Shown: positions 641 through 14,629 of the stretch, in pieces
Numbering within the stretch: the stretch's first letter is position 1
How the letters are laid out: the number at the start of each line of letters is the position of its first letter
Translations under genes and position numbers: made by a program
Origin: Chloroflexota bacterium
GTDB taxonomy: Bacteria > Chloroflexota > UBA6077
Reading direction: 5' to 3'
Assembly (NCBI GenBank): GCA_021845945.1
Contig: JAJZRD010000050.1
Location: forward strand, 1 to 18,213
Length of the DNA stretch: 18,213 nucleotides
The notes under the pieces: generated by a model
The model's input: the letters and a program-made list of their open reading frames with translations, nothing else
Database searches by the model: none
Told to the model about the DNA's origin: nothing

Positions 641-659
641 CTCCCTCTCGGGGAGGGAG
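641..659 (-). promoter_or_regulatory. Small hairpin in the panB leader
   Basis: CTCCCTC (641-647) and GAGGGAG (653-659) pair perfectly around a 5-base loop, about 50 bases upstream of the panB start. It could fold in the panB 5' leader. There is no T tract on either side, so an intrinsic terminator is unlikely. Confidence 0.3.
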
Positions 660-1002: not shown

Positions 1003-1018
1003 CCACAAGGAGCCTGGC

Positions 1019-1690
1019 ATGATTACCCTGCACCTCCACAAGTCCGACCTCGTAGGTGTCCCCCTGGGTCACCACGCGGCGGACTCCATCCGCGACGCCA
1101 TCCTTCAGGGCTCCCTTCGGCCCGACGAGAGGCTGGTCGAGTCCGCTATCGCCTCTCAACTCAACCTGAGCCGCGGACCCGTCCGCGACGCCCTCAGGCA
1201 GCTCGCTCTCGAAGGACTTGTCGTGATTGTTCCTCGACGCGGCACCTTCGTGAGCCGGCTGGACCGGGCAGACATACGGGAGATCTCCACCCTTCGGGCC
1301 GTGATCGAGGGGCTGGCAGCCCGTTTCCTCGCTGTGAGGCGCGACCAGGCAGCTGTCGATCAGCTGGAGGAGTGCCTCAACGCGATGGCCGAAGCGGGAG
1401 ATGCCGACCCCGTCCGCTTCGCCACCTTCGACCTGAAGTTCCACGAGACCCTGGTGCGAGCCTCCGGCCACAGGCGGCTCTACCATTCCTGGGCCAACCT
1501 CCGCACTCAGATCTGGATGTTCATCAGGGAAACCCGGCTCGGAAACCTCCGCTCGGCGGAGGGCACGCGTGAGTTCCACCAAACCATCGTCCGAGCGATC
1601 AGGGCCGGCGACGCCGCCGAGGCCGAGCGCGCCGCCAGGCACCATAGCGAATCCACAGGACCTGAGCTAGAAGACTACCTTACCCGTTAA
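1019..1690 (+). CDS. GntR-family transcriptional regulator, FadR/FCD subfamily
   Basis: A 223-residue DNA-binding regulator, the usual length for the FadR/FCD branch. The N-terminal winged helix-turn-helix covers about residues 15-85, including ESAIASQLNLSRGPVRDAL and the wing PRRGTFVS. The C-terminal FCD ligand domain keeps the metal/ligand-binding pattern: Asp and His in FDLKFHE, His in EFHQTI and His in ARHHSES. FCD regulators generally bind small carboxylic acids, which fits the TRAP transporter and dehydrogenase genes downstream. The ATG at 1019 was chosen because AAGGAG lies eight bases upstream and because the candidate promoter and palindrome would otherwise be coding. An in-frame ATG at 857 with its own GGAGGA would add 54 low-complexity residues and is less likely. 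It is the first gene of the plus-strand cluster and probably its local regulator. Confidence 0.93.
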   Translation: MITLHLHKSDLVGVPLGHHAADSIRDAILQGSLRPDERLVESAIASQLNLSRGPVRDALRQLALEGLVVIVPRRGTFVSRLDRADIREISTLRAVIEGLAARFLAVRRDQAAVDQLEECLNAMAEAGDADPVRFATFDLKFHETLVRASGHRRLYHSWANLRTQIWMFIRETRLGNLRSAEGTREFHQTIVRAIRAGDAAEAERAARHHSESTGPELEDYLTR

Positions 1691-1691
1691 C
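1684..1691 (-). promoter_or_regulatory. Half-site copy of the candidate operator before URO-D gene 1
   Basis: CCGTTAAC at 1684-1691 is identical to the right arm of the palindrome at 983-1002. It overlaps the stop codon of the regulator and lies 75 bases upstream of the first methyltransferase gene. A single 8-bp half-site could be chance; its position before the next gene makes it worth noting. Confidence 0.3.
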
Positions 1692-1765
1692 TCCGTCGTC
1701 TCCCATGGTGATCGAATAGTGCCCCTGGCGTGGATTAGTAGAGTCTGCCAACAGGGAGGCTCCCG

Positions 1766-2989
1766 ATGGGTGGCGTCGACTCAGGAAACGGTTCCATCCG
1801 GTCCGAGATTCCCCGGCTGCTCGACCAGTTCTGCGCGGCCGTGGAGAGCCCTGAGAACAGGTCCCGGCTCAAGCTGTGGGCCGAGCCGTCCTTCCACCTG
1901 AAGACGGTCAAGTTCAGGGGCCAGCCGCTTCCCCTCGTCGAGACAGGAGGCAAGATCCCGATCCAGGCCGACGTGTACAGCGTCGCCTTCTGGGCCAGGA
2001 TCTTTGGCTTCAGCCTCGCCCAGTACTACACCGACCCCGCTACCTACCTTCACTACTATCTCAAAGCCCGCCTGCGCTGCTTCTCTGATATCCCGGATGA
2101 CAGCCCCCTCGTGCCTGCTGTCCCAACATGGATCGGGCTGGGCTTCGAGGCGAGCCTCTTCGGCATCCGCCAGCTCTACGACGAAGTCGCCGAGCCTTGG
2201 GTCGACCGCGATTCCGCTCTCAAAGACTACGGCGAGCTCGGGAAGATCGGCAGACCCGACTTCAGAGCCACCGGCCTCATGCCGCTCGCCCTGCGTTTCT
2301 ACGACGAGATCCAGCAGATGGTGGACGGCTACCCCGTCAGGGTACAGTTCCACGATTGGGCCCCGGGCCTCCTCACGAGCTTGATCTACCTAAGGGGTTA
2401 CGACAACCTGATGGTCGACATGCTGGAGGAGCCGGAGCTGGTGCATGGCATCGTTCGCCTGGTCACGGACATCCGCAAGCAATGGGAGGTCGACCGCTCC
2501 AACTACCTCGGTCGCCCGATTCCCCAGGCAATGTACTACGACGACGACGTCAACATACCTCAGCTCTCCCCTGGCCTCTTTACGGAATTCCTCCTTCCCT
2601 ACGAGAAGGAGATCCACGATTTCCAGGGCGGCGTGTCCTACTGGCACAGCTGCGGCAACATCACTCCGTTCCTGCCTGCGATCCGCGAGATGCCGCGCAT
2701 CGAGCTTCTGAACGTCAGCGCCTGGACCGACGTTCGTCGCGCGGCGACGGTGTTCGCGGGCACACCATTGGAAGTCTGCGTCCACGCGGTGGACGACGTG
2801 CTTCAGGCCACTCCGGAGCAGATGGAGGCCCGAGCGCGCGGGCTCGTGGAGGCATGCTGCGAGATGAAGGTGCCGGCCTGGACCATTCGGGCCGAGGGCA
2901 TCACCGGCCTGGAGGATCCTCAGGCGGATCTTCGCCAGGTGAAGGCCTGGGTCGAAACCACCCGGAGAGCAGTGGAGGATAGAGGGTAG
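1766..2989 (+). CDS. URO-D-family corrinoid-dependent methyltransferase 1 (HxC type)
   Basis: A 407-residue cytoplasmic protein of the uroporphyrinogen-decarboxylase/MtaA-CmuA superfamily, predicted to move a methyl group to or from a corrinoid protein. The C-terminal half has the diagnostic features: YYDDDVN (257-263), the stretch SPGLFTEFLLPYEKEI (268-283), WHSCGN (His294 and Cys296), and a distal Cys pair at 364-365 in EACCEM. A His-x-Cys plus distal Cys set is the zinc site of MtaA/MtbA-type methyltransferases, where zinc activates a thiol or other methyl acceptor. True heme-pathway UroD lacks this site, so heme synthesis is unlikely. The ATG follows GGGAGG by six bases. The SDR gene starts 10 bases after the stop. 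The substrate cannot be told from sequence; it could be a substrate demethylase or the methyl-acceptor side. Confidence 0.85.
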   Translation: MGGVDSGNGSIRSEIPRLLDQFCAAVESPENRSRLKLWAEPSFHLKTVKFRGQPLPLVETGGKIPIQADVYSVAFWARIFGFSLAQYYTDPATYLHYYLKARLRCFSDIPDDSPLVPAVPTWIGLGFEASLFGIRQLYDEVAEPWVDRDSALKDYGELGKIGRPDFRATGLMPLALRFYDEIQQMVDGYPVRVQFHDWAPGLLTSLIYLRGYDNLMVDMLEEPELVHGIVRLVTDIRKQWEVDRSNYLGRPIPQAMYYDDDVNIPQLSPGLFTEFLLPYEKEIHDFQGGVSYWHSCGNITPFLPAIREMPRIELLNVSAWTDVRRAATVFAGTPLEVCVHAVDDVLQATPEQMEARARGLVEACCEMKVPAWTIRAEGITGLEDPQADLRQVKAWVETTRRAVEDRG

Positions 2990-2998
2990 GAGGCGTCC

Positions 2999-3784
2999 AT
3001 GAGGCTGGAGGGCAAGGCAGCCATAGTCACGGGGGCCGGGCGGGGCATCGGGCGGGGCGTGGCATTGCGGCTGGCCCGGGAAGGGGCCGACGTCGCGGTG
3101 GTCGACATCCAGGGCGACCTGGCCGACCAGACGGCTGGAGAGATAGAGAAGCTGGGCCGCAGTCCCCTCGCCCTGCCTACCGACGTCAGCGACAGCGCCG
3201 CGGTAGCCGAGATGGTGGGCTCCGTCCACAGCAAGTACGGCCATATCGACATCCTCGTCAACTCCGCCGCCATCGTCGTCACCACCCCGATGGTTGAGAC
3301 GCGGGAAGAGGATTGGGACCGGATCATGGCCATCAACCTCAAGGGCACCTTCCTCTGCTGCAAGGCGACCGTGCCCCACATGATGACGCAGCGATCCGGC
3401 AAGATCGTGAACTTCTACTCCTCGGGAGCCAAGTACGGCTCCCCCAACTCCACGGCCTACGCCGCGACGAAGTTCGGCGTTTGGGGCTTCAGCCTATCCC
3501 TTGCCGTGGAGTTGGCTCCCCACGGCATCAACGTCAACTGCGTCTCGCCGGGGGTAATCGATACCGAGATGATCAGGGACGTGTTCACAGCTAAGAGCCG
3601 CCTGGCGGGCAAGGAGGTGGACGCGGTGCGGGCGGAGATCACATCCCAGATGCCACTTGGACGGATGGGGACGCCCGAGGACATCGCGGGCGCGGTAGCC
3701 TACCTGGTTTCCTCCGATGCCGATTACGTCACCGGCCATGTGCTGGAGGTCAGCTCGGCGATGAACAGGCTCCGGTTCAAGTGA
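2999..3784 (+). CDS. Short-chain dehydrogenase/reductase (classical SDR, probably NAD-dependent)
   Basis: A 261-residue Rossmann-fold oxidoreductase that interconverts an alcohol and a carbonyl compound. Family signatures are complete: the TGAGRGIG cofactor loop (11-18), Asp36 at the end of the second strand (favouring NAD over NADP), NSAA (88-91), the catalytic Ser at 141/142, and YAATK with Tyr154 and Lys158, followed by the SPGVIDTEM loop. The ATG is preceded by TAGGAGG, which overlaps the stop of the methyltransferase gene, so the two are almost certainly co-transcribed. In this context it probably oxidises a hydroxyl group of the imported compound before cleavage by the E1/E2 complex, but that is inference. 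The substrate is unknown. Confidence 0.92.
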   Translation: MRLEGKAAIVTGAGRGIGRGVALRLAREGADVAVVDIQGDLADQTAGEIEKLGRSPLALPTDVSDSAAVAEMVGSVHSKYGHIDILVNSAAIVVTTPMVETREEDWDRIMAINLKGTFLCCKATVPHMMTQRSGKIVNFYSSGAKYGSPNSTAYAATKFGVWGFSLSLAVELAPHGINVNCVSPGVIDTEMIRDVFTAKSRLAGKEVDAVRAEITSQMPLGRMGTPEDIAGAVAYLVSSDADYVTGHVLEVSSAMNRLRFK

Positions 3785-3830
3785 GGCATCAACCGCAGCA
3801 ACGGCGCGGGCATTTCGGCTGCGGCGAGTT

Positions 3831-3843
3831 GTTGACAGTTTTC
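3831..3843 (+). promoter_or_regulatory. Copy of the candidate operator motif upstream of the cupin gene
   Basis: GTTGACAGTTTTC matches the 983 palindrome's left part (GTTAACGGTTTTC) at 11 of 13 positions and lies about 40 bases before the cupin start. It includes a TTGACA hexamer, so it may instead be a -35 box, but no acceptable -10 lies 16-18 bases downstream. Confidence 0.4.
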
Positions 3844-3871
3844 AATTCGGAATGAGGGGGCCGACAACAAC

Positions 3872-4261
3872 ATGGAATTGCTCAGGAGGGAGGATCTCCC
3901 GAAAACCCGTCTACCTGGACGCATCATTCAGAAGACGATTGGCAGGGATGCCTCGGTCGCGAGCCGCAAGATAACCATGGGATTCGCGCAGTACTCCGCC
4001 GAAGCTGGCCCAATGACGCCACACCAGCACGCCGAAGAGGCGGTCTACGTCATCAGCAGTCATAACGGCTGGGTGCGCTTCGGAGAGGACCAGAGCCGAT
4101 TGTGCCCCCCCGTGCCGCTCGCAGCCGGGATGACCCTGCACTTCCCCGAACTCGAATGGCACGTATTCGAGTACGAGGAAGGGGGGCACGTCGACATAGC
4201 GTTCTTCTACGGTCAGGTGGACAACATTCGTCCTGAGGAGATAGCCGCCAGTCGGCGATAA
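3872..4261 (+). CDS. Single-domain cupin protein
   Basis: A 129-residue protein with one conserved beta-barrel cupin domain. Motif 1 is HQHAEEAVYV (His51, His53, Glu55/56, Gly66) and motif 2 is PELEWHVFEY (His97), so a full set of metal ligands seems present. Single-domain cupins act as isomerases, dioxygenases, decarboxylases or effector-binding proteins, and nothing here decides among them. No signal peptide is visible. GAGGGGG lies 11 bases before the ATG, a rather long spacing. An 87-base gap separates it from the SDR gene, and a hairpin follows its stop, so it may be its own transcription unit inside the cluster. A role in processing or sensing the pathway substrate is a guess. Confidence 0.8.
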   Translation: MELLRREDLPKTRLPGRIIQKTIGRDASVASRKITMGFAQYSAEAGPMTPHQHAEEAVYVISSHNGWVRFGEDQSRLCPPVPLAAGMTLHFPELEWHVFEYEEGGHVDIAFFYGQVDNIRPEEIAASRR

Positions 4262-4294
4262 TTGGCACTCCACCATGACTTCGTCAGGAAGTAT

Positions 4295-4319
4295 CCGTCG
4301 GCACGTCGTGCGCCGACGG
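4295..4319 (+). terminator. Hairpin after the cupin gene
   Basis: CCGTCGGC (4295-4302) pairs with GCCGACGG (4312-4319); the stem extends by GTG/CAC pairing with one bulged base. It lies 34 bases after the cupin stop. No T tract follows, so it is either a Rho-assisted terminator or an mRNA-stabilising stem. Confidence 0.4.
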
Positions 4320-4382
4320 CGGCAGCGATGGGCTGCGTGATTCTGGCGCTGGGTTCTGCGGTGGTTTCTTGGCCGATCTTCT

Positions 4383-4391
4383 GTTAACAGT
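4383..4391 (+). promoter_or_regulatory. Copy of the candidate operator motif upstream of URO-D gene 2
   Basis: GTTAACAGT matches the motif start (GTTRACRGT) shared by the sites at 983 and 3831. It lies 30 bases before the ATG of the second methyltransferase gene. The match stops after nine bases, so this is a weaker copy. Confidence 0.35.
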
Positions 4392-4421
4392 CAACCGCCG
4401 AATCAGACGGGGAGGTGCGAG

Positions 4422-5537
4422 ATGACGCGCACAGTCGAAGCGGAGTTCCTGGCCACGGTACGCGACCGGCAGCCCGGTCGAATACTTCCCGTGCTCGTGA
4501 GCGCAGGACCTTTCCTTCCCATCCTGCGCGGCATCCCTATGCTCAAGTACTACCGCGACCCAGCCCTGCTGCTGGAGTGCAACCTCTGGCTCCAGGACCG
4601 CTTCCCGGACGTCAAGCTGGTCGTTGGACCCTGGGGCGACTTCGGCGTCGCCGCTGTGCCCTCGGCCTTCGGTTGCCCGGTCTTCTGGACCGAGGAGGAC
4701 CCACCCTACGTCAAGCCTGTGCTCGGGTCCATCGAGGAGGTGGACAGGCTCCGCCCGGTAGATCCTCACCGGGACGGCCTGATGCCGGACGCCCTCGAGA
4801 TCTACCGCTACGCCTGGAAGAACACCCCCAGGCGCTACGTGGAGGAGTACGGCTGGCTGGACGGCGTCGCTTGGGTCCTGGGGCCGCTGGAGAACGCTGC
4901 GCTCATCCGCGGGTACAGCGAGTTCCTGGCGGATCTGGTCGAGGAACCAGAAAGAGTCCACAAGCTTCTCTCGATCGTGACAGAGACAACCCTGGCGTTT
5001 CTGCGTGCCCACGAGGAGGTGAACGGGCCGATGAAGCTCCTCTTCGTCGCCGAGCACTTCCCCTCGCAAGTAGGGCGCGCTCACTTCGAGGAGTTCTGTC
5101 TGCCCTACGTCCGAGCCATCTTCGCCGAGTTTCCCGGGGCGATAGGGCTGTATCACAACGAGGGGAATGTCTCCCATATCTTGGACCGCATTCCAGAGTT
5201 GGGAGCGGAGATCTTCCACTTCGGGCTCGTCACCCCCCAGGGACGCAGCCGGAGCGGGAGCGAGAGGGAGCGGTTCCGCGAGAGCATAAAGACGGCCGTG
5301 GCGGCTCTGGGCGACCGGATGTGTCTTGCCGGCAACGTCCATCCCGTCGACGTGATGCTGAATGGGACTCCGCAGGAGGTCGCCGAGGAGGCTCGTTTCT
5401 GCATGGACGCGGCGGTGGGCAAGGCGCCCTTCCTTCTCACCGGCGGTGGCGGAATGGCTCCCGGCACGCCGTTGGAAAACGTCGACGCGCTGGTGGCAGC
5501 GGCGCGAGAGTATCGCTTGATCCCATCTCCTGTCTAG
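4422..5537 (+). CDS. URO-D-family corrinoid-dependent methyltransferase 2 (HxE type)
   Basis: A 371-residue URO-D-superfamily protein placed directly before the corrinoid protein, the normal position for the substrate-specific methyltransferase that charges it. It retains [22 protein letters not shown] geometry (about 217-233) and ends with the [17 protein letters not shown] loop (about 347-363) that is typical of the family. The metal-site motif reads YHNEGNV, with His245 and Glu247 where URO-D protein 1 has His and Cys, and no obvious distal Cys partner is seen. A Glu ligand suggests a different metal site or acceptor chemistry. GGAGGT lies five bases before the ATG. The gap to the corrinoid gene is 30 bases. 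Substrate unknown; a methoxy, methylamine or methylthio compound are all possible. Confidence 0.85.
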
Positions 5538-5567
5538 CACTGGGGAATCTCTGAAGGGAGGGCACCT

Positions 5568-6239
5568 ATGACCGAAGAAGTGCGAGAGAAGCTGGACGCA
5601 GTGCGCGAAGCGGTGATCCACGGCAAGACCAAGGTGGTTAAGGATCTCACCTCCGCCTGCCTGGATGCCGGAGCTACGCCTGGGGCGATCCTCAACGAGG
5701 CGTTGATCCCAGGCATGGCCAGGGTCGGAGAACGGTTCGGCTGCGGCGAGATCTTCGTACCGGAGATGCTGATCGCCGCCAGGGCCATGTACGCCAGCCT
5801 GGACGTCCTGAAGCCCCTCATGAACGCCACGCAGATGGAGCCCCGAGGTACCGTGCTGATCGGCACCGTCAAGGGCGACCTCCACGATATCGGGAAGAAC
5901 CTGGTCAGGATGATGGTGGAGGGGGCTGGCTACACGGTGGTGGATCTGGGAGCGGACGTGGCGCCTTCGGCCTTCATAGAGGCCGTGCACAAGCACCGCC
6001 CCCAGGTGCTGGGGCTGTCCGCTTTGCTCACTACGACGATGGCCCAGATGCGCACAACCCTGCGGGCGCTGGACGAGGCAGGGCTCCGGGCCAAGACAAA
6101 GGTGATGGTGGGCGGAGCCCCCGTGACCCAGCGCTATGCGGATGAGATCGGCGCGGACGGCTACGGGGCCGACGCCAACTCCGCCGTACGCATGGTGAAC
6201 CAGTGGTGTTCGGAGCCGCAGAAAGTGAGCGCACCATGA
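5568..6239 (+). CDS. Methyltransferase corrinoid protein (MtaC/MtbC/MttC-like)
   Basis: A 223-residue cobalamin-binding protein that carries the methyl group between methyltransferases. The N-terminal four-helix cap domain (about 1-88) includes EALIPGMARVGERFGCGEIFVPE. The Rossmann-like B12 domain (about 90-215) has GDLHDIGKN with Asp104, His106 and Gly109 (the DxHxxG motif; His106 is the lower cobalt ligand), GLSALLTTT near 149-157 and VGGAPVT near 181-187. Length and architecture match stand-alone corrinoid proteins rather than MetH. It follows URO-D gene 2 and its TGA overlaps the ATG of E1 alpha. Reactivation of oxidised cobalt normally needs an ATP-dependent activase, which is not encoded in this window. 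Confidence 0.95.
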   Translation: MTEEVREKLDAVREAVIHGKTKVVKDLTSACLDAGATPGAILNEALIPGMARVGERFGCGEIFVPEMLIAARAMYASLDVLKPLMNATQMEPRGTVLIGTVKGDLHDIGKNLVRMMVEGAGYTVVDLGADVAPSAFIEAVHKHRPQVLGLSALLTTTMAQMRTTLRALDEAGLRAKTKVMVGGAPVTQRYADEIGADGYGADANSAVRMVNQWCSEPQKVSAP

Positions 6240-7228
6240 CCGAATTGATCGCGAAGATCAACGAGGAAGTCGACGTCGAACCCACCGAGTTGGTGCGCAT
6301 GTACCGCAGCATGCTGCGCATCCGCCACTTCGACGGCACCATCAAGGACCTCTTCACCAAAGACTTCATCTCCGGCCCTACCCACACATACATCGGGGAG
6401 GAGGCGGTGGCCGTCGGGGCGATGTCCATACTGACCAGGGATGACTACATCATCAGCACCCATCGCGGCCACGGCCACTGCATCGCCAAGGGCGGGGACG
6501 TCAAGCGCATGATGGCGGAGCTCCTGGGCAAGGCGACCGGCTATTGCAAGGGCAAGGGCGGCTCCATGCACATCGCCGACTTCGACCTGGGCATCCTCGG
6601 AGCCAACGGCATCGTCGCCGCGGGACTGCCGATCGCCGTCGGCGCTGCCCTGGCCCTTCAGATGGACGGGAATGGTCGGGTGATCCTCGCCTTCTCCGGG
6701 GACGCGGCTACCAACAACGGCGCATTCCACGAGGCCCTGAACCTCGCCTCCGTCTGGAAGCTCCCGGTGGTGTTCGTCTGCGAGAACAACCTCTACGGAA
6801 TCACCACCCGGATCACCAGCGCCACAGCCATAGAGGACCTGGCGATCAGGGCTTCCTCCTACGGCATGGAGGGCGTAATCGTGGATGGAAACGATGTCCT
6901 CGCCGTCCGCCGGGTGGTGGGCGAGAAGGTCGCGAAAGCCCGGGCCGGGGGTGGACCCACCCTGGTCGAGTGCAAGACCTACCGCTGGTTCGGGCACGTG
7001 GCCACCGACCCGGGGCTCTATCGCGGAATCGAGGAGATCGAGATCTGGAAGGCCAAGGACCCAATCGCCCGCTTCAGGAAGGACCTGGTGGCCCGGGGAG
7101 TCCTCACCGATGAGCAGGCCGAGGCCATCGATCAGGAGGCAGCCCGGGAGATCGAAGAGGCCATCGAGTTCGGCATGCAGAGCCCTGAGCCAGACCTCGA
7201 CCAGCTACTGGTAGACATCTACGGGTAG
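6236..7228 (+). CDS. Thiamine-diphosphate dehydrogenase E1 alpha subunit (acetoin/pyruvate dehydrogenase type)
   Basis: A 330-residue alpha subunit of a 2-oxoacid or acetoin dehydrogenase E1, which decarboxylates or cleaves its substrate on thiamine diphosphate and passes the acyl group to lipoyl-E2. The ThDP motif is clear: GDAATNN from Gly155 to Asn161, ending with ENN at 183-185. STHRGHGH (75-81) and the GKGGSMHI segment (107-113) are typical of E1 alpha. Length and SGPTHTYIGEEAVAVGAM-like N-terminus are closest in style to AcoA/PdhA. The ATG at 6236 overlaps the corrinoid stop (ATGA), indicating translational coupling; an in-frame ATG at 6203 inside the upstream gene is rejected. Substrate specificity cannot be read from the sequence, so no aco or pdh symbol is given. 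Confidence 0.92.
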   Translation: MTELIAKINEEVDVEPTELVRMYRSMLRIRHFDGTIKDLFTKDFISGPTHTYIGEEAVAVGAMSILTRDDYIISTHRGHGHCIAKGGDVKRMMAELLGKATGYCKGKGGSMHIADFDLGILGANGIVAAGLPIAVGAALALQMDGNGRVILAFSGDAATNNGAFHEALNLASVWKLPVVFVCENNLYGITTRITSATAIEDLAIRASSYGMEGVIVDGNDVLAVRRVVGEKVAKARAGGGPTLVECKTYRWFGHVATDPGLYRGIEEIEIWKAKDPIARFRKDLVARGVLTDEQAEAIDQEAAREIEEAIEFGMQSPEPDLDQLLVDIYG

Positions 7229-7243
7229 GAGATTCGGTCTCCA

Positions 7244-7270
7244 GTGGACCGGGGCCTTCTGCCCGTCCAC
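7244..7270 (+). other. Imperfect hairpin between E1 alpha and E1 beta
   Basis: GTGGAC (7244-7249) and GTCCAC (7265-7270) pair, with an inner GGGC/GCCC stem and a short bulge, in the 70-base gap. It may adjust the ratio of the two subunits or stabilise the mRNA. No T tract follows. Confidence 0.3.
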
Positions 7271-7298
7271 CGGTGAGGCAGCGCAACGGAGTGGATAG

Positions 7299-8273
7299 AT
7301 GAAAGAACTCACCTATTCAAAGGCCATCAACGAAGCCCTCAGGGAGGAGATGGCCAGGGACAGCAAGGTCCTTGTCCTCGGCGAAGAGGTCGGCGTGCCA
7401 CGCGGCGGTGTCTTCGGAGTGACTCAGGGACTGGAAGAGGAGTTCGGGAAGAGTCGGGTGCGCAACACCCCCATCTCGGAGATGGCTATAGCGGGCGCGG
7501 CCGTAGGGGCCTCGCTCCTGGGGTACCGGCCCGTGGCCGAGATCATGTACGTCGACTTCATCACCCTGGCAATGGACCAGATCGTCAACCAGGCAGCCAA
7601 GGTGCGATACATGTTCGGCGGGAAGGCCCGGCCGAGCCTGGTGATCCGGACCCAGGGCGGGGTCGGCCGGGGCGGGGCAGCTCAGCACTCCCAGAGCCTG
7701 GAGATCTGGTTCGCCACCATTCCAGGGCTGAAGGTGGCGATGCCCGCGACGCCCGCCGACGCCAAGGGGATGCTGAAGGCGGCCATCCGCGACGACAACC
7801 CCGTCATCTTCATAGAGCACAAGAAGTTGTACGCCACCAGGGGCATGGTGCCGGAGGGGGACCACGTGGTGCCCCTCGGCAAGGCGGAGGTGAAGCGCCA
7901 GGGCACGGCCGCGACGATAGTCACCTATTCCTACATGGTCCTGGAAGCGCTGGCGGCAGCGGAGCAGCTGGCGGCGAGGGGGATTGACGTGGAGGTAGTG
8001 GACCTCCGGAGCGTCAATCCCATTGATTGGGAGCGGGTCCTCTCCTCCGTGAAGAAAACCGGCAAGCTGATAGCCGTCTACGAGGCCTGCAAGACCGGCG
8101 GGTTGGGCGCCGAGATCTGCTCCCGCGCGGCCGAGGAGCTGTTCGACTACCTGGACGCCCCGGTCCAGAGAGTAGCAGGGCTGGACACGCCGATACCCTA
8201 CAATCGCAAGCTGGAGCGCGCGGCCATACCCAACGCAGACCAGATAGTCGCCGCCGTGGACAGGGTTCTCTAG
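7299..8273 (+). CDS. Thiamine-diphosphate dehydrogenase E1 beta subunit
   Basis: A 324-residue partner of E1 alpha in an alpha2beta2 heterotetramer. The transketolase-like pyrimidine-binding domain covers about residues 4-180 and contains NTPISEMAIAG, in which Glu61 should activate the thiamine ring, and AQHSQSLE with His130 near the active site. The transketolase C-terminal domain (about 195-315) includes VDLRSVNPID and the EACKTGGLGAEI loop. The length is typical for AcoB/PdhB. A GGAG lies seven bases before the ATG. It sits 70 bases after E1 alpha, an expected arrangement; what is unusual is that E2 does not follow, the TRAP genes do. Confidence 0.94.
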   Translation: MKELTYSKAINEALREEMARDSKVLVLGEEVGVPRGGVFGVTQGLEEEFGKSRVRNTPISEMAIAGAAVGASLLGYRPVAEIMYVDFITLAMDQIVNQAAKVRYMFGGKARPSLVIRTQGGVGRGGAAQHSQSLEIWFATIPGLKVAMPATPADAKGMLKAAIRDDNPVIFIEHKKLYATRGMVPEGDHVVPLGKAEVKRQGTAATIVTYSYMVLEALAAAEQLAARGIDVEVVDLRSVNPIDWERVLSSVKKTGKLIAVYEACKTGGLGAEICSRAAEELFDYLDAPVQRVAGLDTPIPYNRKLERAAIPNADQIVAAVDRVL

Positions 8274-8459
8274 GGGTGGCAAGGAAGCCTGTGGGATAGA
8301 GGGGGCGACGAAGCCTTCGCTGGACTCATCGTAGCGTACCTGGTTTGTCCAACGACTCCCGCGGGGGGATTTCGAGAGGAGGTGAGACGGCCACAAAGAG
8401 CGCCAGCATCGCGTTGATTTGTTGGTCCTGGTAGCTTCTAGACTAGGAGGAGAATGGGC

Positions 8460-9590
8460 ATGTCGAGAGCACGATCCAAGGGTCTTTCGTTTCTTGTGAT
8501 GGTCACCGGTGTCGTGATGCTGGCGCTGCTGGTCCAGGCGTGTGCGCCGGCCGCCCCAGCGCCGGCCCAGGCTCCTGCCAAGCCGGCAGCAGAGCCGACC
8601 AAGGCTTCGGCACCCGCACAACCCGCCGCAGCACAGCCTACCGCGGCCGCGGCTCCGGCCAAGGCCGCTGCGCCCAAGTACACCCTCAGGCTTGCCCACC
8701 ACGTGGCCCTGACCCACTTAGTGCAGACCGTATCGGAAAAGTTCGCCGAGACGGTGAGCAAGAAGACCAACGGCCAGGTGGAGGTGAAGGTCTTCGGTGC
8801 CGGCCAGATCGGCGGCCTCAAGGACAACACGGAGGGTGTGAAGCTGGGTACCCTGGATCTGGCGTGGGCCGACCTGAGCGCCGCTGCCCTCTACTATGAC
8901 CGGGCTAACATCATCAGCCTCCCGTTCCTGTTCCGCGACCACGACCACTGGCAGAAGGTGGCCAATGGGCCGATAGGCAAGCAGCTGGCCAGCGAGCTGC
9001 TGGAGAAGACCGGCATTCGAACCCTCTCCTACCAGGTTTCCGGCTTCAGGGTGATGATGTCCCGGAACAAGCCAATCAACAGTGCAGCCGACATGAAGGG
9101 GTTGAAGATACGCATCCCCGAAGTGCCGATCTACGTCGACACCATGAAGGCGCTGGGGGCCAACGCCACGCCGCTGCCTTGGGGTGACGTCTACACGGCC
9201 CTGCAGACGGGCGTTGTGGACGCTGTGGAAGTGCCCGCCGACACCGCGCTGTCTGGCAAGATACCGGAGGTCGCCAAGTACGTTTCCAAGACCTACCACA
9301 TCTTCACAGATGTCAATCTCATCATGAGCGATAAGGTGTACAAGGGCCTGCCGGCCGACATCCAGAAGGCGATCGACGACTCGGCCAAGGAGGTAGTGAC
9401 CGACTGGGGTCAAGCCGAGGCAATCAAGCTGGACAAACGGTCCTACGACGACCTGGTCAAGGCGGGCATGCAGGGAATCGATAAGCCCGACATGGCTTCC
9501 TTCCAGAACGCCGTTAAGCCCGTGTGGGACAACTTCATCACCACAACCAAGTCCGCTGAGTTGGTCAAGGCGATAACCGACACCAAGTAG
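8460..9590 (+). CDS. dctP: TRAP transporter solute-binding protein, DctP family, lipoprotein
   Basis: A 376-residue extracytoplasmic receptor that captures a small organic acid for the TRAP permease. The N-terminus MSRARSKG followed by a hydrophobic segment and LLVQAC is a lipoprotein signal, with Cys28 as the lipidated residue. An Ala/Pro-rich linker (about 29-72) follows, a style common in Chloroflexota. The DctP domain (about 74-370) includes GAGQIGGLKDNTEGVKLG and LKIRIPEVPIY; Arg218 in IRIP is the family Arg that usually grips the ligand carboxylate. PWGDVYTALQTGVVDAVE is also a family signature. Two in-frame ATGs follow AGGAGG: 8454 is only three bases away and 8460 is nine, so 8460 is preferred. 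The ligand is probably a carboxylate; its identity is unknown. Confidence 0.93.
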   Translation: MSRARSKGLSFLVMVTGVVMLALLVQACAPAAPAPAQAPAKPAAEPTKASAPAQPAAAQPTAAAAPAKAAAPKYTLRLAHHVALTHLVQTVSEKFAETVSKKTNGQVEVKVFGAGQIGGLKDNTEGVKLGTLDLAWADLSAAALYYDRANIISLPFLFRDHDHWQKVANGPIGKQLASELLEKTGIRTLSYQVSGFRVMMSRNKPINSAADMKGLKIRIPEVPIYVDTMKALGANATPLPWGDVYTALQTGVVDAVEVPADTALSGKIPEVAKYVSKTYHIFTDVNLIMSDKVYKGLPADIQKAIDDSAKEVVTDWGQAEAIKLDKRSYDDLVKAGMQGIDKPDMASFQNAVKPVWDNFITTTKSAELVKAITDTK

Positions 9591-9609
9591 TCCTATTCAT
9601 CGCCTGCAG

Positions 9610-9650
9610 TCCCGGGCCGTGCCGCAGCAGAGCCACGGTGCGGCCCGGGA
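9610..9650 (+). promoter_or_regulatory. Strong stem-loop between dctP and dctQ
   Basis: TCCCGGGCCG (9610-9619) pairs exactly with CGGCCCGGGA (9641-9650), and five more pairs including two G-T wobbles extend it inward to an 11-base loop. It sits 20 bases after the dctP stop with no T tract. Such stems commonly protect the binding-protein mRNA and lower expression of the membrane subunits. Confidence 0.5.
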
Positions 9651-9703
9651 GCCGATAGCCCGGCCTTTGGTGGTGAGCTCGACAACACAGGGAGGTAGCC
9701 GCC

Positions 9704-10231
9704 GTGCAACTCCTTTTCAGCTACCTGGACAAATTGCTTTACTGGATCGTCGGTGCCATGATCCTCGTCTTGGCGGCCGTTGGCTTTGCCGGAGTCGTAT
9801 TCCGGTACGTTCTCCAGTCGTCGCTGTTCTGGGCAGACGAGTTCCTACGATACTGGGACATCTGGCTTATCTTCCTGGGGGCCGCGCTTGCCACTCGCCA
9901 CGGGTCCCTGATAACGGTGGACATCTTCACTGGCTTGCTGCCATACCGGGCACGCCACTACCTGGAGGCAGCCGTGCACGCTGTGGCCACGCTCTTTCTC
10001 ATTGCCATGATCTGGTTCTCCTGGGAGCTTGTTACCCGCAGCTCGGGCGGCGTCTCGGCTGCGATGAGGGTACCAATGGACAGAATGTACATGGTGTTTC
10101 CCGTCGGGATGGGGCTAATGGCAATCAACTGCCTTCGCCAAGCAGTCGAACGCTTCAAAGAGGCCTCCAGGGGTAAGCCTGCTGTGACATCAAGCCTGGA
10201 GGTGCCCGACCTCCAAGCCCATCCTGAGTAG
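9704..10231 (+). CDS. dctQ: TRAP transporter small permease, DctQ family
   Basis: A 175-residue inner-membrane subunit that pairs with DctM. Four hydrophobic helices are visible (about residues 10-33, 45-63, 86-108 and 125-145), the standard DctQ topology. FRYVLQSSLFWADEFLRY (about 33-50) is the family signature after helix 1. The start is GTG at 9704, chosen because GGAGGT lies seven bases upstream and no better ATG exists. The hydrophilic C-terminal tail of about 25 residues is unremarkable. It follows the dctP stem-loop and precedes dctM by 66 bases. Confidence 0.9.
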   Translation: MQLLFSYLDKLLYWIVGAMILVLAAVGFAGVVFRYVLQSSLFWADEFLRYWDIWLIFLGAALATRHGSLITVDIFTGLLPYRARHYLEAAVHAVATLFLIAMIWFSWELVTRSSGGVSAAMRVPMDRMYMVFPVGMGLMAINCLRQAVERFKEASRGKPAVTSSLEVPDLQAHPE

Positions 10232-10297
10232 CCCGTGATCGTCCTCACGATGAGAATGAGCTAGAGATGCCCCCCAAGTCTGTCCAGGAGGTGATCG

Positions 10298-11581
10298 ATG
10301 CTTGTCCTGATGTTCGTGGTCCTGACGGTGTTGATGTTCGTCGGGATGCCGGTGGCTCTCGCGATGGGCATCTCGGCCTTGATGGTGGTGGTCCTCAGGG
10401 GTGAGGTTGCGCCCATGGTCCTGGCCCAGAGGATGTTCGTGGGCGTGGATTCGCTTCCGCTCCTGGCTATTCCTTTCTTCATCCTAGCCGGCGAGTTGAT
10501 GGAGAGGGGCGGCATCTCCTTGCGCCTCATTCGGTTCGCCGCTGCCCTGATAGGGCACGTGAAGGGTGGGCTAGCCATGGTCACCATTGTGGCGAGCATG
10601 ATCTTCGCGGGCATCTCCGGTTCGGCCGCCGCCGATACCAGTGCCATCGGCTCCATCATGATGCCCGCCATGATCAAGCGGGGCTACAAGCGGGGCTTCG
10701 TGGTCACTCTCCAGGCCTCGGCAGGCACCATCGGGCCCATCATCCCGCCCAGCATCCTGATGATCGTCTACGGGTCAATGACGAATCTCTCCATCGGGCA
10801 GCTGTTCCTGGCGGGTGTGGTGCCTGGCGTGCTGGTCGGCCTCTCGTTGATGGCGCTGACCTACTACTACGCTGTCAAGGACGGATATGAAGGGGAGGCA
10901 CGGGTCAGCATCAAAGAGACGAGGAGCGCCTTCTGGAACGCCCTCCCCGCTTTGGCGCTTCCCTTCGCCATCATCGGTGGCATTCTCGGCGGCATCTTCA
11001 CCGCCACAGAGGCGGGTGTCTCCGCCGTGGTCTATGCCTTGATCGTCGGCTTCTTCGTCTACCGCGACCTGAAGCCGAGAGAGCTGCCCCAGATCCTTGC
11101 CCGCGCTGCCACGACCTCCATGGGGCTCATGTTCATCGTGGCCAACGCGGCGATGTTCGGATGGGTGCTGGCGCGGGAGGAGTTCCCCAGGCTCACCGTG
11201 GGCCTTCTCACCTCCCTGACAACCGATCCCAACGTGATCATCCTCTTGATCATCGCTTTTCTTGCGCTTGTGGGGTGCTTCATCGAGACGATGGCAGCCA
11301 TGATCATCCTGGTGCCGGTGCTGTTCGCCACCGGCGCGGCCTACCACTTCGATCCGGTTCACTTCGCCATGGTGATCGTCGTGATGCTGCTGATCGGCAC
11401 CATCACGCCGCCGGTCGGGATACTGCTCTACCTGACATGCTCAATGACCAGGACGCCAATCGCCGAGGCAATGAAGTACGTCATACCCTTCGCCGGCGCA
11501 ATGCTGGCGGTGGTGATCCTCATTGCCTACGTGCCGGAGCTCACCCTATTCATACCGAGACTGTTCTTCGGAGGTAGGTAG
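10298..11581 (+). CDS. dctM: TRAP transporter large permease, DctM family
   Basis: A 427-residue polytopic membrane protein forming the ion-coupled transport channel. It is almost continuously hydrophobic, consistent with about 11-12 helices. Family signatures include AIPFFILAGELMERGGIS (about 52-69), SMIFAGISGSAAADTSAIG (about 98-116), GTIGPIIPPSILMIVYG (about 144-160) and, near the C-terminus, GTITPPVG. The length is normal for a separate DctM. The ATG follows AGGAGGTG by a few bases. With dctP and dctQ it completes a secondary, sodium-coupled uptake system for an organic acid. Confidence 0.95.
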   Translation: MLVLMFVVLTVLMFVGMPVALAMGISALMVVVLRGEVAPMVLAQRMFVGVDSLPLLAIPFFILAGELMERGGISLRLIRFAAALIGHVKGGLAMVTIVASMIFAGISGSAAADTSAIGSIMMPAMIKRGYKRGFVVTLQASAGTIGPIIPPSILMIVYGSMTNLSIGQLFLAGVVPGVLVGLSLMALTYYYAVKDGYEGEARVSIKETRSAFWNALPALALPFAIIGGILGGIFTATEAGVSAVVYALIVGFFVYRDLKPRELPQILARAATTSMGLMFIVANAAMFGWVLAREEFPRLTVGLLTSLTTDPNVIILLIIAFLALVGCFIETMAAMIILVPVLFATGAAYHFDPVHFAMVIVVMLLIGTITPPVGILLYLTCSMTRTPIAEAMKYVIPFAGAMLAVVILIAYVPELTLFIPRLFFGGR

Positions 11582-11610
11582 CCATCGGGCTACGAGACTC
11601 GGAGGGAAAC

Positions 11611-11996
11611 GTGACGACAAACATTCGCTTCCTCGGCGCCGCAGCTTACGAGATCACCGCGCCCAACGGCATCAAGATCCTGATGGACCCCTGGCTGGAA
11701 TAGGCGAGTTGTACAAGCCGAACATCGGTCTGATGCACGTTACATTGCCTATCCCGATCGAGGCCGACGGCATGCGCGTCGTGACGGGCGAGCTAACCCC
11801 CTACGAGGCTGTGCTTGCCACTCAGTGGCTCGGCCTGGAGTACGTTCTGCCGATGCACTACCTGGATCCCGACTGCGATGAAGTCCGGGAGTATCTCAAC
11901 CTGCTCGAGACCATGTCGGTGCGGGGCGGACCCGTCGCGAAGCCGGTCGTCCTCAGGGCGGGGGAATCCTGGACCTTTACACCACCGGCGCAGTGA
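11611..11996 (+). pseudogene. MBL-fold metal-dependent hydrolase, internally deleted and frameshifted
   Basis: A GTG at 11611 with GGAGGGAA upstream starts a normal-looking MBL-fold N-terminus (30 residues, TNIRFLGAAAYEITAPNG then MDPWLE) that ends at TAG 11701-11703. From about 11700, in another frame, the C-terminal part of the same kind of protein continues to 11996: IGELYKPNIGLM, ATQWLGLEYVLPMHYLDPDCD and LRAGESWTF. In intact relatives these parts are separated by well over 100 residues that carry the HxHxDH metal motif, so the catalytic middle is missing and the frame has shifted. The remnant sits between dctM and E2, with dctM 29 bases upstream. It cannot be an active hydrolase. An assembly error is possible. 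Confidence 0.8.
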
Positions 11997-12033
11997 CCCC
12001 GGCGAGTTGGGCCGAGAACTGGAGGATGGAACC

Positions 12034-13317
12034 TTGGCAGTCGAAGTAATCATGCCCCGCCTCGCGGCCGAGATGGAGGAGGGGACTGTCGCTTCCTGGC
12101 TCGTGGCGGAGGGCGACCCTATCGAAAAGGGCCAGCCGCTCTTTCAGGTCGAGAGCGAGAAGGCCAACGTGGAGGTGGAGGCCCCTGCTTCGGGGTTTCT
12201 CCGCTCGCTCAAGGTGGTGGCGGGGACGACGGTAAAGTGCGGCACCTCCCTCGCCCTGATAGCCACCGGTGACGAGATGGTGCTGGAGACTCTTCCTGCT
12301 ACGGCTCCACCGCAGGAAGCCCCCCCGGCGGGCGCGGTACCGTGCGTCGGCGCCTCGAGTCCCAGACTGCCGCACCGCTCCACTCCAGCCGCGAGAAGGG
12401 TCGCGGCGGAGTTGAACGTGGACGTGGGCCAGATCCATGGTACGGGGCCCGGGGGCAGGGTCATCGAGGACAACGTTCGCGCCTATGCCCTGGCCAGGAA
12501 CGCGGCCCTCGCTACGGCGGGAGCCCCCCGCGCAGCCGCGCAGAAGGGGGAAGCGGATCCTCTCCCTCAGCCGACGTCCGCGGCCGTCGCGACCGCTGCC
12601 CCACCCACCGACACAGCATCCACCGTGTTCGCCCAGGCGGAGACGATCGAGCTTTCCCGCCTCCGCAGGGTCACCGGCGAGCGAATGGTGGAGAGCGTTC
12701 GCCAGGCTCCCCACTTCGACCTCACCGTGGACGTGGACATGGAAGAGGCCTCCAGGCTTCGAGATCGCTGGTATCACGAAACAAGCCAGGAATCCGGGAA
12801 GGCGAGCTACACGGCCATCCTCACACGCGCCGTGTCCCAGATCCTCGTGCGGCATCCCATGGTGAACGCGACCTTCCAGGCAGGGCAGCTCCGTCTCCTG
12901 AAGGAGATTAACCTCGGCATCGCCATGGCCGTCAAGGACGGGCTCATGGTTCCGGTGGTCAGGAACGCGGATCGCAAGAGCCTCTCGCAGCTCTCCAACG
13001 CCTTGGAGGACCTGCGAAAGCGAGCTGCGGAGATGCGGTTCAAGGCGGAGGAGCTGTCCGGAGGTACCTTCACCATCTCCAATCTGGGGATGTACGGCAT
13101 CGACCAGTTCTCCGCGATCATCAATCCGCCGGAGGCCGCCATCCTGGCCGTGGGGCAGATCGCCAAGCGGGCGGTGGTGGTGGATGACCATGTGGTTATC
13201 CGGCCGATAATGACGATGACCCTATCCGTCGATCACCGCGTGCTGGACGGCGCAATCGCTGCGGCCTTCCTGCGCGACGTGAAGCGAGTACTGGAGAACC
13301 CCTATTTGCTGATCTAG
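12034..13317 (+). CDS. Dihydrolipoamide acyltransferase E2 of the 2-oxoacid/acetoin dehydrogenase complex
   Basis: A 427-residue core subunit that takes the acyl group from E1 on its lipoyl arm and transfers it to CoA. Domains in order: lipoyl domain (1-78) with Lys43 in ESEKANVEV as the lipoylation site; a Pro/Ala linker; a peripheral-subunit-binding domain (about 110-152) with TPAARRVAAELNVDV and GTGPGGRV; a second Ala/Pro-rich linker; and the CAT-like catalytic domain (about 205-427) with VDHRVLDG, where His401 and Asp405 are catalytic. The start is TTG at 12034, with GGAGGA seven bases upstream; this gives the conserved opening MAVEVIMPRL. ATG 12052 would cut the first strand. It is separated from E1 by the TRAP genes, and no E3 follows. 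Confidence 0.92.
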   Translation: MAVEVIMPRLAAEMEEGTVASWLVAEGDPIEKGQPLFQVESEKANVEVEAPASGFLRSLKVVAGTTVKCGTSLALIATGDEMVLETLPATAPPQEAPPAGAVPCVGASSPRLPHRSTPAARRVAAELNVDVGQIHGTGPGGRVIEDNVRAYALARNAALATAGAPRAAAQKGEADPLPQPTSAAVATAAPPTDTASTVFAQAETIELSRLRRVTGERMVESVRQAPHFDLTVDVDMEEASRLRDRWYHETSQESGKASYTAILTRAVSQILVRHPMVNATFQAGQLRLLKEINLGIAMAVKDGLMVPVVRNADRKSLSQLSNALEDLRKRAAEMRFKAEELSGGTFTISNLGMYGIDQFSAIINPPEAAILAVGQIAKRAVVVDDHVVIRPIMTMTLSVDHRVLDGAIAAAFLRDVKRVLENPYLLI

Positions 13318-13366
13318 CCCGACTATTCGCGGGCGGCCGCGGGCGTCAATCAAAGGAGTAGCGACG

Positions 13367-14548
13367 ATGTTGCCTAAGGAGCGCATGCTGGCGGCGATGG
13401 AACACCGAGAGGGCGACCGCGTCCCTGTGGGCGAGCTGGCCTCCGACTTCGAGATGACCGAGCGAGTGCTGGGTCATCCCACCTACTACCGCTCCAAATG
13501 GAGAGAGTACAAGGCGGAGTGGGAGGGCCGGCGTGAGGACGTAGCCGCTTCCTACTCCCGGGACATAGTCGATCTCGCCCGCACCCTGGAGTGGGACTTC
13601 CTGGTGGTGCCGCTTGTGCCGGCCCGACGACACGTCTGCCCGAAGCCGGAGATGCTGGGCGAGTACCGCTGGCGCGACGCCTCCGGAAAGGTGTGGCAGT
13701 ACTCGCCAGATTCGGGTGGCCACGCCATGCTGATCGAGGCTCCGCCCATGAACGTCGCGGACATCGTCTTGCCTAAGGACTTTCAGGTCGACGAATCGCG
13801 CCTCGAGGCGATCGCCGCTGCCGTGAGAGCGCTAGGGGATACCCACTTCGTGGTGGGGAGGCTGCCTGAATGCACCTTCCCCTGGGACCTGACGATCGGG
13901 ATGGAGGACTTCCTCATGAGGATGATCACCCAGCGGGAGTTCGTACAGAGGGCTACCGAGGCAGCCGTGCGCCAGGGCGAAGCCTGGGCGGCGGCGATGT
14001 GCGACCTCGGCGTCGACGCCGTGATAGAGTGTACCGATTACTGCGACAACTTCGGCCCTATGATGGGTCCGAAGCTCTTCCGTGAATTCATTCTGCCGGG
14101 CATCAGGAGGCTGGGCAAGGTCGCCCACTCGAAGGGCAAGTACTTCCTGAAGCACACCGACGGCAACACCTGGGCCATCTTGGACGACATGATCGCGGCC
14201 GGCATCGACGGCTGGCAAGGTATACAGCCCAGCATCGGCATGGATCTCAAGGCGCTCAAGGAGAAGTACTGCGGCAAGCTCTGCCTCTTCGGCGGGGTAA
14301 ACAACGAGACGCTGATCGCCGGTACGCCCGCGGAGGTGATGGAGGAGGTGGAGTACGCCTTCCGCTACGCGGCCCCTGGAGGTGGCTACGTGCTCGCCTC
14401 CGGCAACACACTCCAGATCGGCACGAAGTACGAGAACTACGTGGCAATGCGAAAGGCGGCCAGGCAGTTCGGAACCTACCCTATCGTCCTGCCTGAGGTC
14501 AACTGCCCTGGCCGACCCCTGAGTCCGGTTCGCCCGACAGACAGCTAG
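13367..14548 (+). CDS. URO-D-family corrinoid-dependent methyltransferase 3 (HxD type)
   Basis: A 393-residue URO-D-superfamily protein, distinct from the other two in this cluster. The N-terminus PKERMLAAMEHREGDRVPV is the classic opening of this superfamily. The C-terminal half has YCDNFGPMMGPKLFREFILP (225-244), LKHTDGNTWAILDDM (261-275; His263 and Asp265), GIQPSIGMDLKALKEKY (285-301) and LFGGVNNETLIAGTP (307-321). Asp265 stands where URO-D protein 1 has Cys296. AAAGGAG precedes the ATG by nine bases. It follows E2 by 49 bases and is the last intact gene of the cluster. Its partner is probably the corrinoid protein at 5568; it may have a different substrate from URO-D protein 2. Confidence 0.87.
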   Translation: MLPKERMLAAMEHREGDRVPVGELASDFEMTERVLGHPTYYRSKWREYKAEWEGRREDVAASYSRDIVDLARTLEWDFLVVPLVPARRHVCPKPEMLGEYRWRDASGKVWQYSPDSGGHAMLIEAPPMNVADIVLPKDFQVDESRLEAIAAAVRALGDTHFVVGRLPECTFPWDLTIGMEDFLMRMITQREFVQRATEAAVRQGEAWAAAMCDLGVDAVIECTDYCDNFGPMMGPKLFREFILPGIRRLGKVAHSKGKYFLKHTDGNTWAILDDMIAAGIDGWQGIQPSIGMDLKALKEKYCGKLCLFGGVNNETLIAGTPAEVMEEVEYAFRYAAPGGGYVLASGNTLQIGTKYENYVAMRKAARQFGTYPIVLPEVNCPGRPLSPVRPTDS

Positions 14549-14629
14549 CCGAGACCTGGTCATGAATCATCAGGCTGCCTGCAAGCAGGGCTTGAGCCCG
14601 ACTCGTAGGTCAGCACCGCTCTCGAAACG

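Follow-up and report, generated by a model that had tools for sequence, protein, structure and literature searches.

We describe a gene cluster on contig JAJZRD010000050.1 (GenBank assembly GCA_021845945.1) of a Chloroflexota bacterium, of which positions 1 to 18,213 were analysed (hereafter the window). The approximately 14 plus-strand genes at positions 1019-14548 probably constitute one operon, which combines corrinoid methyl transfer, an E1/E2 dehydrogenase complex and a tripartite ATP-independent periplasmic (TRAP) transporter. We tentatively propose, with a probability of roughly 45%, that the operon serves the breakdown of an aliphatic compound with an O-methyl and a carboxyl group, most likely a sugar acid or a polyol-derived acid. 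The modules are interleaved, and corrinoid, UroD-superfamily (URO-D) and E1/E2 genes recur together in other genomes in the company of sugar transporters and aldolases, which argues for O-demethylation of a methylated carbohydrate-type compound. Because a TRAP system takes the place of the ATP-binding cassette (ABC) transporter or phosphotransferase system (PTS) of those genomes, the compound is probably an acid here. The gene set may be a real degradation route that has so far not been described. The first-pass annotation, made from the letters of the window, likewise knew of no described pathway with this set. This agrees with our literature search, in which no title or abstract start dealt with corrinoid demethylation of methylated sugars or with this gene combination, within an open-access coverage that is far from complete.

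Gene order and operon signals

The plus-strand order is GntR/FCD regulator, URO-D1, short-chain dehydrogenase/reductase (SDR), cupin-like protein, URO-D2, corrinoid protein, E1 alpha, E1 beta, DctP, DctQ, DctM, a broken metallo-beta-lactamase (MBL)-fold gene, E2 and URO-D3, with the corrinoid, E1 alpha/E1 beta, DctPQM, E2 and URO-D3 modules interleaved on the same strand. All genes named in the first-pass annotation were retrieved on this strand and within this span using Pfam or, for the cupin, using its sequence pattern and a homologue in genome G004 (introduced below). The intergenic gaps are, in order, 75, 9, 87, 160, 30, -4, 70, 180, 113, 66 and 29 bases, followed by 330 bases across the broken MBL gene and 49 bases. 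The short gaps described earlier thus hold for the range of -4 to 180 bases, except for the 330 bases around the MBL gene, which had been missed.

A GGAG core lies upstream of 12 of the 14 assigned starts, the exceptions being the cupin-like gene and E1 alpha. Between positions 600 and 15200, terminator-like sites show no excess over shuffled sequences (five versus a shuffle mean of 7.1) and promoter-like sites are barely above them (four versus a mean of 2.3, standard deviation 1.7). No transfer RNA gene was detected in the window, nor was any Rfam match at the gathering threshold. The window appears to span the entire contig, 18,213 bases being the greatest length among the contigs that carry its URO-D3.

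Predicted functions of the methyl-transfer, transport and E1/E2 modules

One or both of two predicted methyltransferases would carry out the proposed demethylation. URO-D2 (4422..5537, +; Pfam URO-D 5.3e-42; H245-N-E247) and URO-D3 (13367..14548, +; Pfam URO-D 8.5e-21; H263-T-D265, N347) are both predicted O-methyl:corrinoid methyltransferases. The residues H245, N246 and E247 are invariant in 31 aligned sequences of URO-D2, as are H263, D265 and N347 in 32 aligned sequences of URO-D3. In alignments to 4ay7, the Methanosarcina methylcobalamin:coenzyme M methyltransferase, the Cys of the His-x-Cys motif falls on E247 of URO-D2 and on D265 of URO-D3. According to PMC10418091, S-methyltransferases of the UroD superfamily have a His-Cys-Cys site, while in O-methyltransferases one or both Cys are replaced by Glu/Asp or by a non-coordinating residue. 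As Glu or Asp replaces Cys, this rule assigns URO-D2 and URO-D3 to the O-type, and their metal-site pattern thus predicts O-methyl rather than S-methyl chemistry. The methyl removal suggested in the first-pass annotation is thereby supported in outline, as removal of an O-methyl group, which would pass to the corrinoid protein encoded next to URO-D2.

The structural model of URO-D3 (mean predicted local distance difference test score, pLDDT, of 92) is closer to 4ay7 (best Foldseek match, 6.6e-16) than to the best HemE structure (8.0e-12), and 4ay7/4ay8 are its only sequence matches in the PDB at 1e-3. URO-D2 (pLDDT 92) scores 81.3 and 73.1 bits with the MtaA-type models of NCBIfam versus 42.1 bits with hemE. 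A HemE function was rejected for the URO-D proteins on these curated scores, with which the fold ranking agrees for URO-D3 and not clearly for URO-D2: the hemE cut-off of 302.95 bits is not reached by the 42.1 bits of URO-D2, and URO-D1 and URO-D3 were not listed for hemE at 1e-3. The cut-off of TIGR01463 (MtaA/CmuA; 235.4 bits) is not reached either, with 23.1, 73.1 and 64.8 bits for URO-D1, URO-D2 and URO-D3, respectively.

URO-D1 (1766..2989, +; Pfam URO-D 9.4e-9) belongs to a rarely seen family of the UroD superfamily. Its metal-site candidates are H294-S-C296 and E377, the latter a third site assigned by eye and not conserved in its family. It has 13 relatives at E<=1e-3, one of which is 99% identical, and no PDB match at 1e-3. 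Among 29 genomes of the class of Chloroflexi NC_groundwater_656 (G001) and 400 genomes of its phylum, the latter scored for at most four candidates per genome, the family was matched in G001 only, where an SDR gene lies beside the relative on a contig of only 4.3 kb. The same genome yielded 76 UroD-superfamily candidates at a first look with URO-D2, with nine matches at E<=1e-15. Of 7998 candidates scored with URO-D3, at least 433 are relatives at E<=1e-3, and its nearest named relatives are mostly Chloroflexota metagenome-assembled genomes. For URO-D2, 7997 candidates were scored; its protein cluster also occurs on a contig of 40,085 bases. Viral contigs searched with URO-D2 gave 45 pattern matches, none of them a relative. 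Plasmid searches returned four records with the URO-D2 protein, one of which was inspected and bears no annotation, and 22 with the URO-D2-corrinoid DNA, and the five matches listed for the latter cover only the corrinoid part.

The corrinoid protein (5568..6239, +) is of the MtgC/MttC type: it combines a helical B12-binding_2 domain with a B12-binding domain containing the DxHxxG motif (GDLHDIG) and matches 1y80 in the PDB at 4.9e-62. It scores 233.8 bits with MtgC_2 (cut-off 370) and, just under the cut-off of 215.3, 204.4 bits with TIGR02370. Neither a Pterin_bind methyl-acceptor methyltransferase nor a RACo reactivase was found among the 18 scanned open reading frames (ORFs) of the window, and both partners must therefore be encoded elsewhere. 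In nine other corrinoid loci, selected out of 20 for a URO-D gene nearby and scanned for 77 of their 89 ORFs, RACo, MTHFR, Pterin_bind and ABC genes are among the commonest families, RACo occurring in three and Pterin_bind in two of the 77 nearby proteins.

The transporter comprises the solute-binding protein DctP (8454..9590, +; Pfam DctP 1.4e-80; TIGR00787 above cut-off), the small permease DctQ (9704..10231, +; GTG start; Pfam DctQ 4.5e-33) and the large permease DctM (10298..11581, +; Pfam DctM 5.3e-119). It fits the DctP-type organic-acid TRAP systems, with both binding arginines kept and DctQ and DctM alongside. Of the solved relatives of DctP, 4n8y and 4mhf/4mij score best. Only slightly lower are the scores of 4nq8 and 4pdh, which we take to be pantoate/erythronate-type binders. 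Since the latter two score almost as high as the uronate binders, the DctP sequence does not single out a ligand. The arginines of its SGFR and KIRI motifs align with the carboxylate-binding arginines of 4n8y and 4mhf, so that a carboxylate-bearing ligand is predicted; the import of an organic acid, as suggested earlier, is supported to that extent. Reported ligands are galacturonate for 4n8y and glucuronate for 4x8r (PMC11668362), and glucuronate and galacturonate for 4mhf (PMC7660916). Although DctP shares both arginines with these uronate binders, a further Asn named in PMC7660916 seems, by eye, to align with Val.

The E1/E2 complex has a complete domain set. It consists of E1 alpha (6236..7228, +; Pfam E1_dh 1.4e-85), a thiamine pyrophosphate-dependent dehydrogenase subunit of 2-oxoacid/acetoin type, E1 beta (7299..8273, +; Transket_pyr and Transketolase_C; NF006667 at 382.1 bits, cut-off 321) and the acyltransferase E2 (12034..13317, +; Biotin_lipoyl, E3_binding and 2-oxoacid_dh, i.e. 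lipoyl, E3-binding and catalytic domains), which probably starts at a TTG preceded by GGAGG. No E3 was found among the 18 scanned ORFs; E3 is often shared between complexes. The nearest NCBIfam models of E1 alpha are those of pyruvate dehydrogenase (PDH; 368.3 bits, below the cut-off of 393.85), and its PDB matches comprise PDH E1 alpha (best), branched-chain and other 2-oxoacid dehydrogenases and transketolases. Given these sub-cut-off scores and mixed matches, the sequence does not tell the E1 substrate. E1 alpha matches at E<=1e-85 occur in 129 of 301 Chloroflexota genomes, the matches listed being 45-59% identical.

Related clusters in other genomes

A related cluster lies in Chloroflexi WY4.bin17 (G004; loci L004/L057). 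Within approximately 22 kb, this genome encodes counterparts of GntR (35% identity to the window), SDR (35%), corrinoid protein (52%), URO-D3 (53%), cupin (50%), E1 alpha (48%) and E1 beta (54%), along with an intact MBL gene and E2 pieces. These make nine gene types common to both clusters (GntR, SDR, cupin, corrinoid, URO-D3, MBL, E1 alpha, E1 beta and E2), and each cluster also encodes another pair of URO-D proteins, which belong to other subtypes. The G004 stretch contains SDR, a sugar-binding protein, ABC genes, corrinoid, URO-D, URO-D3, SMP-30, a second such URO-D, cupin and two TAL_FSA genes, next to a divergent GntR gene. Beyond the latter follow the intact MBL gene, E1 alpha (about 12 kb from URO-D3), E1 beta, a fused E1 and the E2 pieces. 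Its transporter is a sugar ABC system in place of TRAP.

Two more genomes link the methyl-transfer and E1/E2 genes. G200 has URO-D genes, corrinoid, aminotransferase, E1 alpha, E1 beta, E2 and aldolases on one strand. G043 carries, on a 4.4 Mb contig, a zinc-dependent alcohol dehydrogenase, URO-D, class II aldolase, PTS EIIA/EIIC-GAT, a Sugar-bind regulator, E1 alpha/E1 beta/E2, PTS EI, TAL_FSA and corrinoid, its transporter being a galactitol-type PTS. The earlier proposal of one pathway is supported as far as one functional unit is concerned, by the interleaving of the modules and by the renewed association of corrinoid, URO-D and E1/E2 genes in G004, G200 and G043. In G200, three URO-D genes identified by homology and the genes of two proteins that are UroD-like by eye without a Pfam match surround the single corrinoid gene and the E1/E2 complex (L088, 2379-17030). 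This locus also encodes an FAD oxidoreductase, a class IV aminotransferase, and HpcH and DHDPS-type aldolases. In locus L109 of G200 (C57), two corrinoid genes (9783 and 11815) share a strand, with about 2 kb between them.

Among 301 Chloroflexota genomes, at least three corrinoid-E1 alpha pairs lie within 11 kb of each other (G200, 1.2 kb; G043, 5.1 kb; G004, 10.2 kb) versus 0.67 expected. The pairs were matched by eye between 117 listed corrinoid places and the listed E1 alpha places (matches down to about 1.7e-90). As the expectation counted all E1 alpha matches at 1e-85, three is a lower bound and 0.67 is slightly high; for this expectation, genome sizes were rounded, contig breaks were ignored, and the two draws of 301 genomes share their handles where these are listed.

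Related E1 genes also occur beside sugar or polyol uptake genes in both alphaproteobacterial plasmid stretches examined. The operons of Rhizobium sophoriradicis and Terrarubrum resemble the window in an E1 alpha of 52-53% identity, adjacent E1 beta/E2 genes and a transporter and regulator alongside. In contrast to the window, they have no annotated URO-D or corrinoid gene, and the Rhizobium stretch includes E3. In a locus of Deltaproteobacteria SM23_61 (L002), the genes of E1 alpha, E1 beta and E2 share one strand and a 10-kb stretch with a corrinoid fragment, a TRAP system and URO-D3. Its TRAP system, the only one seen besides that of the window, is of the TAXI type by Pfam and its E1/E2 proteins are only 28-45% identical to those of the window, hence it was rejected as an instance of the same cluster. 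The corrinoid fragment within this run (5948-6295; 116 residues) covers only part of the B12-binding domain. Locus L006 combines URO-D3 with a fused E1, SDR, PALP, transketolase and an altronate-type dehydratase, and no corrinoid gene was seen in it.

Compared with known systems, the cluster resembles the UroD O-demethylase systems (MtvB, OdmB, VdmB and MtoB) and the Cdm chloromethane system, in which a separate UroD-fold methyltransferase and a corrinoid protein are encoded together, and its metal site, being of the carboxylate type, agrees with the O-type rule from the literature. It differs in having E1/E2 and TRAP genes inside the cluster and no detected Pterin_bind enzyme or reactivase. 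Type 1 mlp clusters (Kountz and Balskus, PMC10418091) likewise bring a corrinoid protein together with several methyltransferases of the UroD type. Unlike in the window, their sites are described as almost invariably His-Cys-Cys, with an assignment to S/Se-methyl metabolism; in that text on mlp clusters, the word TRAP is absent and 'dehydrogenase' occurs once.

The regulator (1019..1690, +) matches GntR (3.7e-18) and FCD (8.2e-25) in Pfam. The SDR oxidoreductase (2999..3784, +; TGAGRGIGRG, YAATK; adh_short_C2 9.1e-66) has NCBIfam matches spread over many SDR kinds. The small cupin-like protein (3872..4261, +; HQHAEE...EWH) was recognised by eye from its HxH...E...H pattern and has no match in Pfam or NCBIfam. 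With its counterpart in the G004 cluster it shares 50% identity across 127 residues, and among 177 genomes of that class a relative at E<=1e-10 was found only in G004 itself. Between DctM and E2, the MBL-fold hydrolase gene is broken into an N-terminal piece ending in TAG (11611..11703, +; a weak alignment of 14 bits, E 0.0026) and a C-terminal piece in another frame (11700..11996, +; 59 bits, E 2.8e-17). They align to residues 699-726 and 857-936, respectively, of one G004 ORF with an intact MBL domain, indicating that about 130 codons of the middle were lost. In G004, a related gene with a whole MBL domain precedes E1 alpha.

On its 5' side the cluster adjoins panB (ketopantoate hydroxymethyltransferase; 1-615, minus strand), which is cut by the contig end. 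Some close solved relatives of DctP presumably bind pantoate or erythronate, and a link to this neighbour is probably a coincidence. On the 3' side lie a polysaccharide deacetylase (15167-16324, +), a protein that weakly matches peptidase-MA (16516-17598, minus strand) and the terminal part of an M41 peptidase (17832-18212, minus strand), for none of which a link to the cluster was seen.

Alternative explanations and proposed pathway

A number of results weigh against the proposed catabolic operon, some of them at the level of the methyltransferases. URO-D2 is not clearly separated from HemE: its model matches 4ay7 first in Foldseek (1.0e-15), with HemE nearly level (5.2e-15) and a TM score of 0.75 for both 4ay7 and 6w2o, and in the PDB sequence search HemE 4wsh (5.1e-9) ranks ahead of 4ay7 (7.5e-8). 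The later Cys of 4ay7, the third metal ligand, falls on Gly in URO-D2 and on Asn in URO-D3. CdmB and one Moorella O-demethylase are reported to work without zinc (PMC13222342), hence the metal-site rule is only a guide. Among the enzymes recognised in the window, none is sugar-specific.

Other such points concern the association of the modules. The co-occurrence in relatives that the first-pass annotation had put forward was found for the corrinoid, URO-D and E1/E2 genes, but the DctPQM part, and with it the full set, was seen only in the window across all neighbourhoods examined. The earlier interpretation is also weakened by the lack of E1/E2 genes in almost all of the other neighbourhoods of URO-D3 and corrinoid genes examined. 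A URO-D3 scan of genome contigs gave 35 loci, many of them cut by contig ends; when these were searched with the genes of the window and some of their relatives, E1 was seen in two (L002 and L006). In a further 17 loci of the URO-D3 family in the class of G006, neither E1 nor E2 nor TRAP reached the threshold applied, bringing the total for E1 to 2/52. Only one of the 18 top-ranked E1 alpha neighbourhoods in the 301 genomes contains a corrinoid gene (G200), a set to which the G001:C422 and G004:C73 neighbourhoods do not belong. Among 20 corrinoid neighbourhoods, E1 is present in G043 alone, which was chosen for that pair, and in none of the 19 others. The three pairs versus 0.67 are a modest excess, and G004 was already known from URO-D3; its sharing of GntR and SDR weighs little because both families are large. 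In a tree of E1 alpha and E1 beta, the window and G004 group together with only 48% support, G043 joins the E1s of rhizobial sugar operons, and G200 is placed elsewhere. This scattered placement suggests either repeated recruitment of E1 or a linkage that is partly due to chance.

Chance alone, with unrelated neighbouring operons for methyl transfer, TRAP transport and a 2-oxoacid dehydrogenase sharing a strand, would account for the low frequencies of E1 near URO-D3 and near corrinoid genes picked without a known pair, and for the modest pair excess. Such neighbours would however not be expected to interleave, with E1 lying between corrinoid and DctP, E2 following DctM and URO-D3 at the end, at short gaps, nor to bring nine gene types together again in G004, and we regard this explanation as unlikely. 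The E1/E2 complex could also be acetoin-dehydrogenase-like and act on a sugar-derived acyloin or methyl ketose, with the methyltransferases serving a separate one-carbon (C1) salvage. The plasmid operons lean in this direction: that of Terrarubrum places a related E1 and an annotated acetoin dehydrogenase E2 beside a PTS glucitol system, and that of Rhizobium combines a sugar ABC system, a kinase, E1/E2/E3 and a class II aldolase. Against this, the models nearest to E1 alpha are those of PDH, albeit below cut-off, and its PDB matches are of 2-oxoacid types or transketolases; a separate acyloin pathway seems quite improbable.

TRAP systems can carry aromatic acids, and vanillate-type methoxylated aromatic acids might be imported and O-demethylated here, leaving E1/E2 to general metabolism. 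The characterised UroD-superfamily O-demethylases MtvB, OdmB, VdmB and MtoB indeed act on methoxylated aromatics (PMC13222342). Yet ring reductase, dioxygenase and CoA ligase are absent among the scanned ORFs of the span, and the related clusters hold sugar transport or aldolase genes. Similarity to 9rui, the one such O-demethylase structure searched, is weak (E 3.4e-6 for URO-D2; no match at 1e-3 for URO-D1 and URO-D3). An aromatic substrate seems improbable to much the same degree as the acyloin pathway. Salvage of S- or Se-methyl groups in the manner of type 1 mlp clusters would fit the His-x-Cys retained in URO-D1 and the combination of UroD-type methyltransferases with corrinoid proteins described for those clusters (PMC10418091). 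It is contradicted by Glu/Asp at the first and Gly/Asn at the second Cys position of URO-D2 and URO-D3, and sulfur or selenium genes were not recognised in the span; we consider it very improbable.

Under the preferred reading of a catabolic operon for an O-methylated acid, DctPQM would import the methylated acid, as its family and two arginines suggest. Fold, motif and gene adjacency suggest that URO-D2 and/or URO-D3 would bind the oxygen of the methoxy group at a metal site without a thiolate ligand and hand the methyl on to the corrinoid protein in its cob(I)amide state. URO-D1 would be a third methyltransferase, and the methyl-acceptor enzyme and corrinoid reactivase would be supplied from other loci. 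Oxidation of a hydroxyl might fall to the SDR. The cupin-like protein might act on intermediates, as might the MBL protein, whose gene is broken in the window. E1 alpha/beta and E2 would presumably turn the resulting 2-oxoacid or acyloin into acyl-CoA, with E3 from elsewhere. The uptake system at the head of the pathway would be interchangeable, being TRAP in the window, a sugar ABC system in G004 and a galactitol-type PTS in G043.

By its chemistry and by the uronate-like relatives of DctP, 4-O-methylglucuronate is a candidate substrate. More speculative, and rather doubtful on present indications, is an oxygen-independent route for O-methyl sugar acids at large, such as the 4-O-methylglucuronate of plant xylan, in which corrinoid demethylation and a dedicated E1/E2 complex lead to acyl-CoA and uptake is swapped between TRAP, sugar ABC and PTS by lineage. 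The corrinoid O-demethylases characterised in the papers cited here act, as far as described there, on aromatic methyl ethers. Should methylated sugars or sugar acids prove to be the substrates of these clusters, the clusters would provide an oxygen-free fate for methyl ethers that are abundant in plant and microbial polysaccharides and would tie C1 release directly to the breakdown of the carbon skeleton. They would also help to annotate many UroD-superfamily proteins that are now named uroporphyrinogen decarboxylase.

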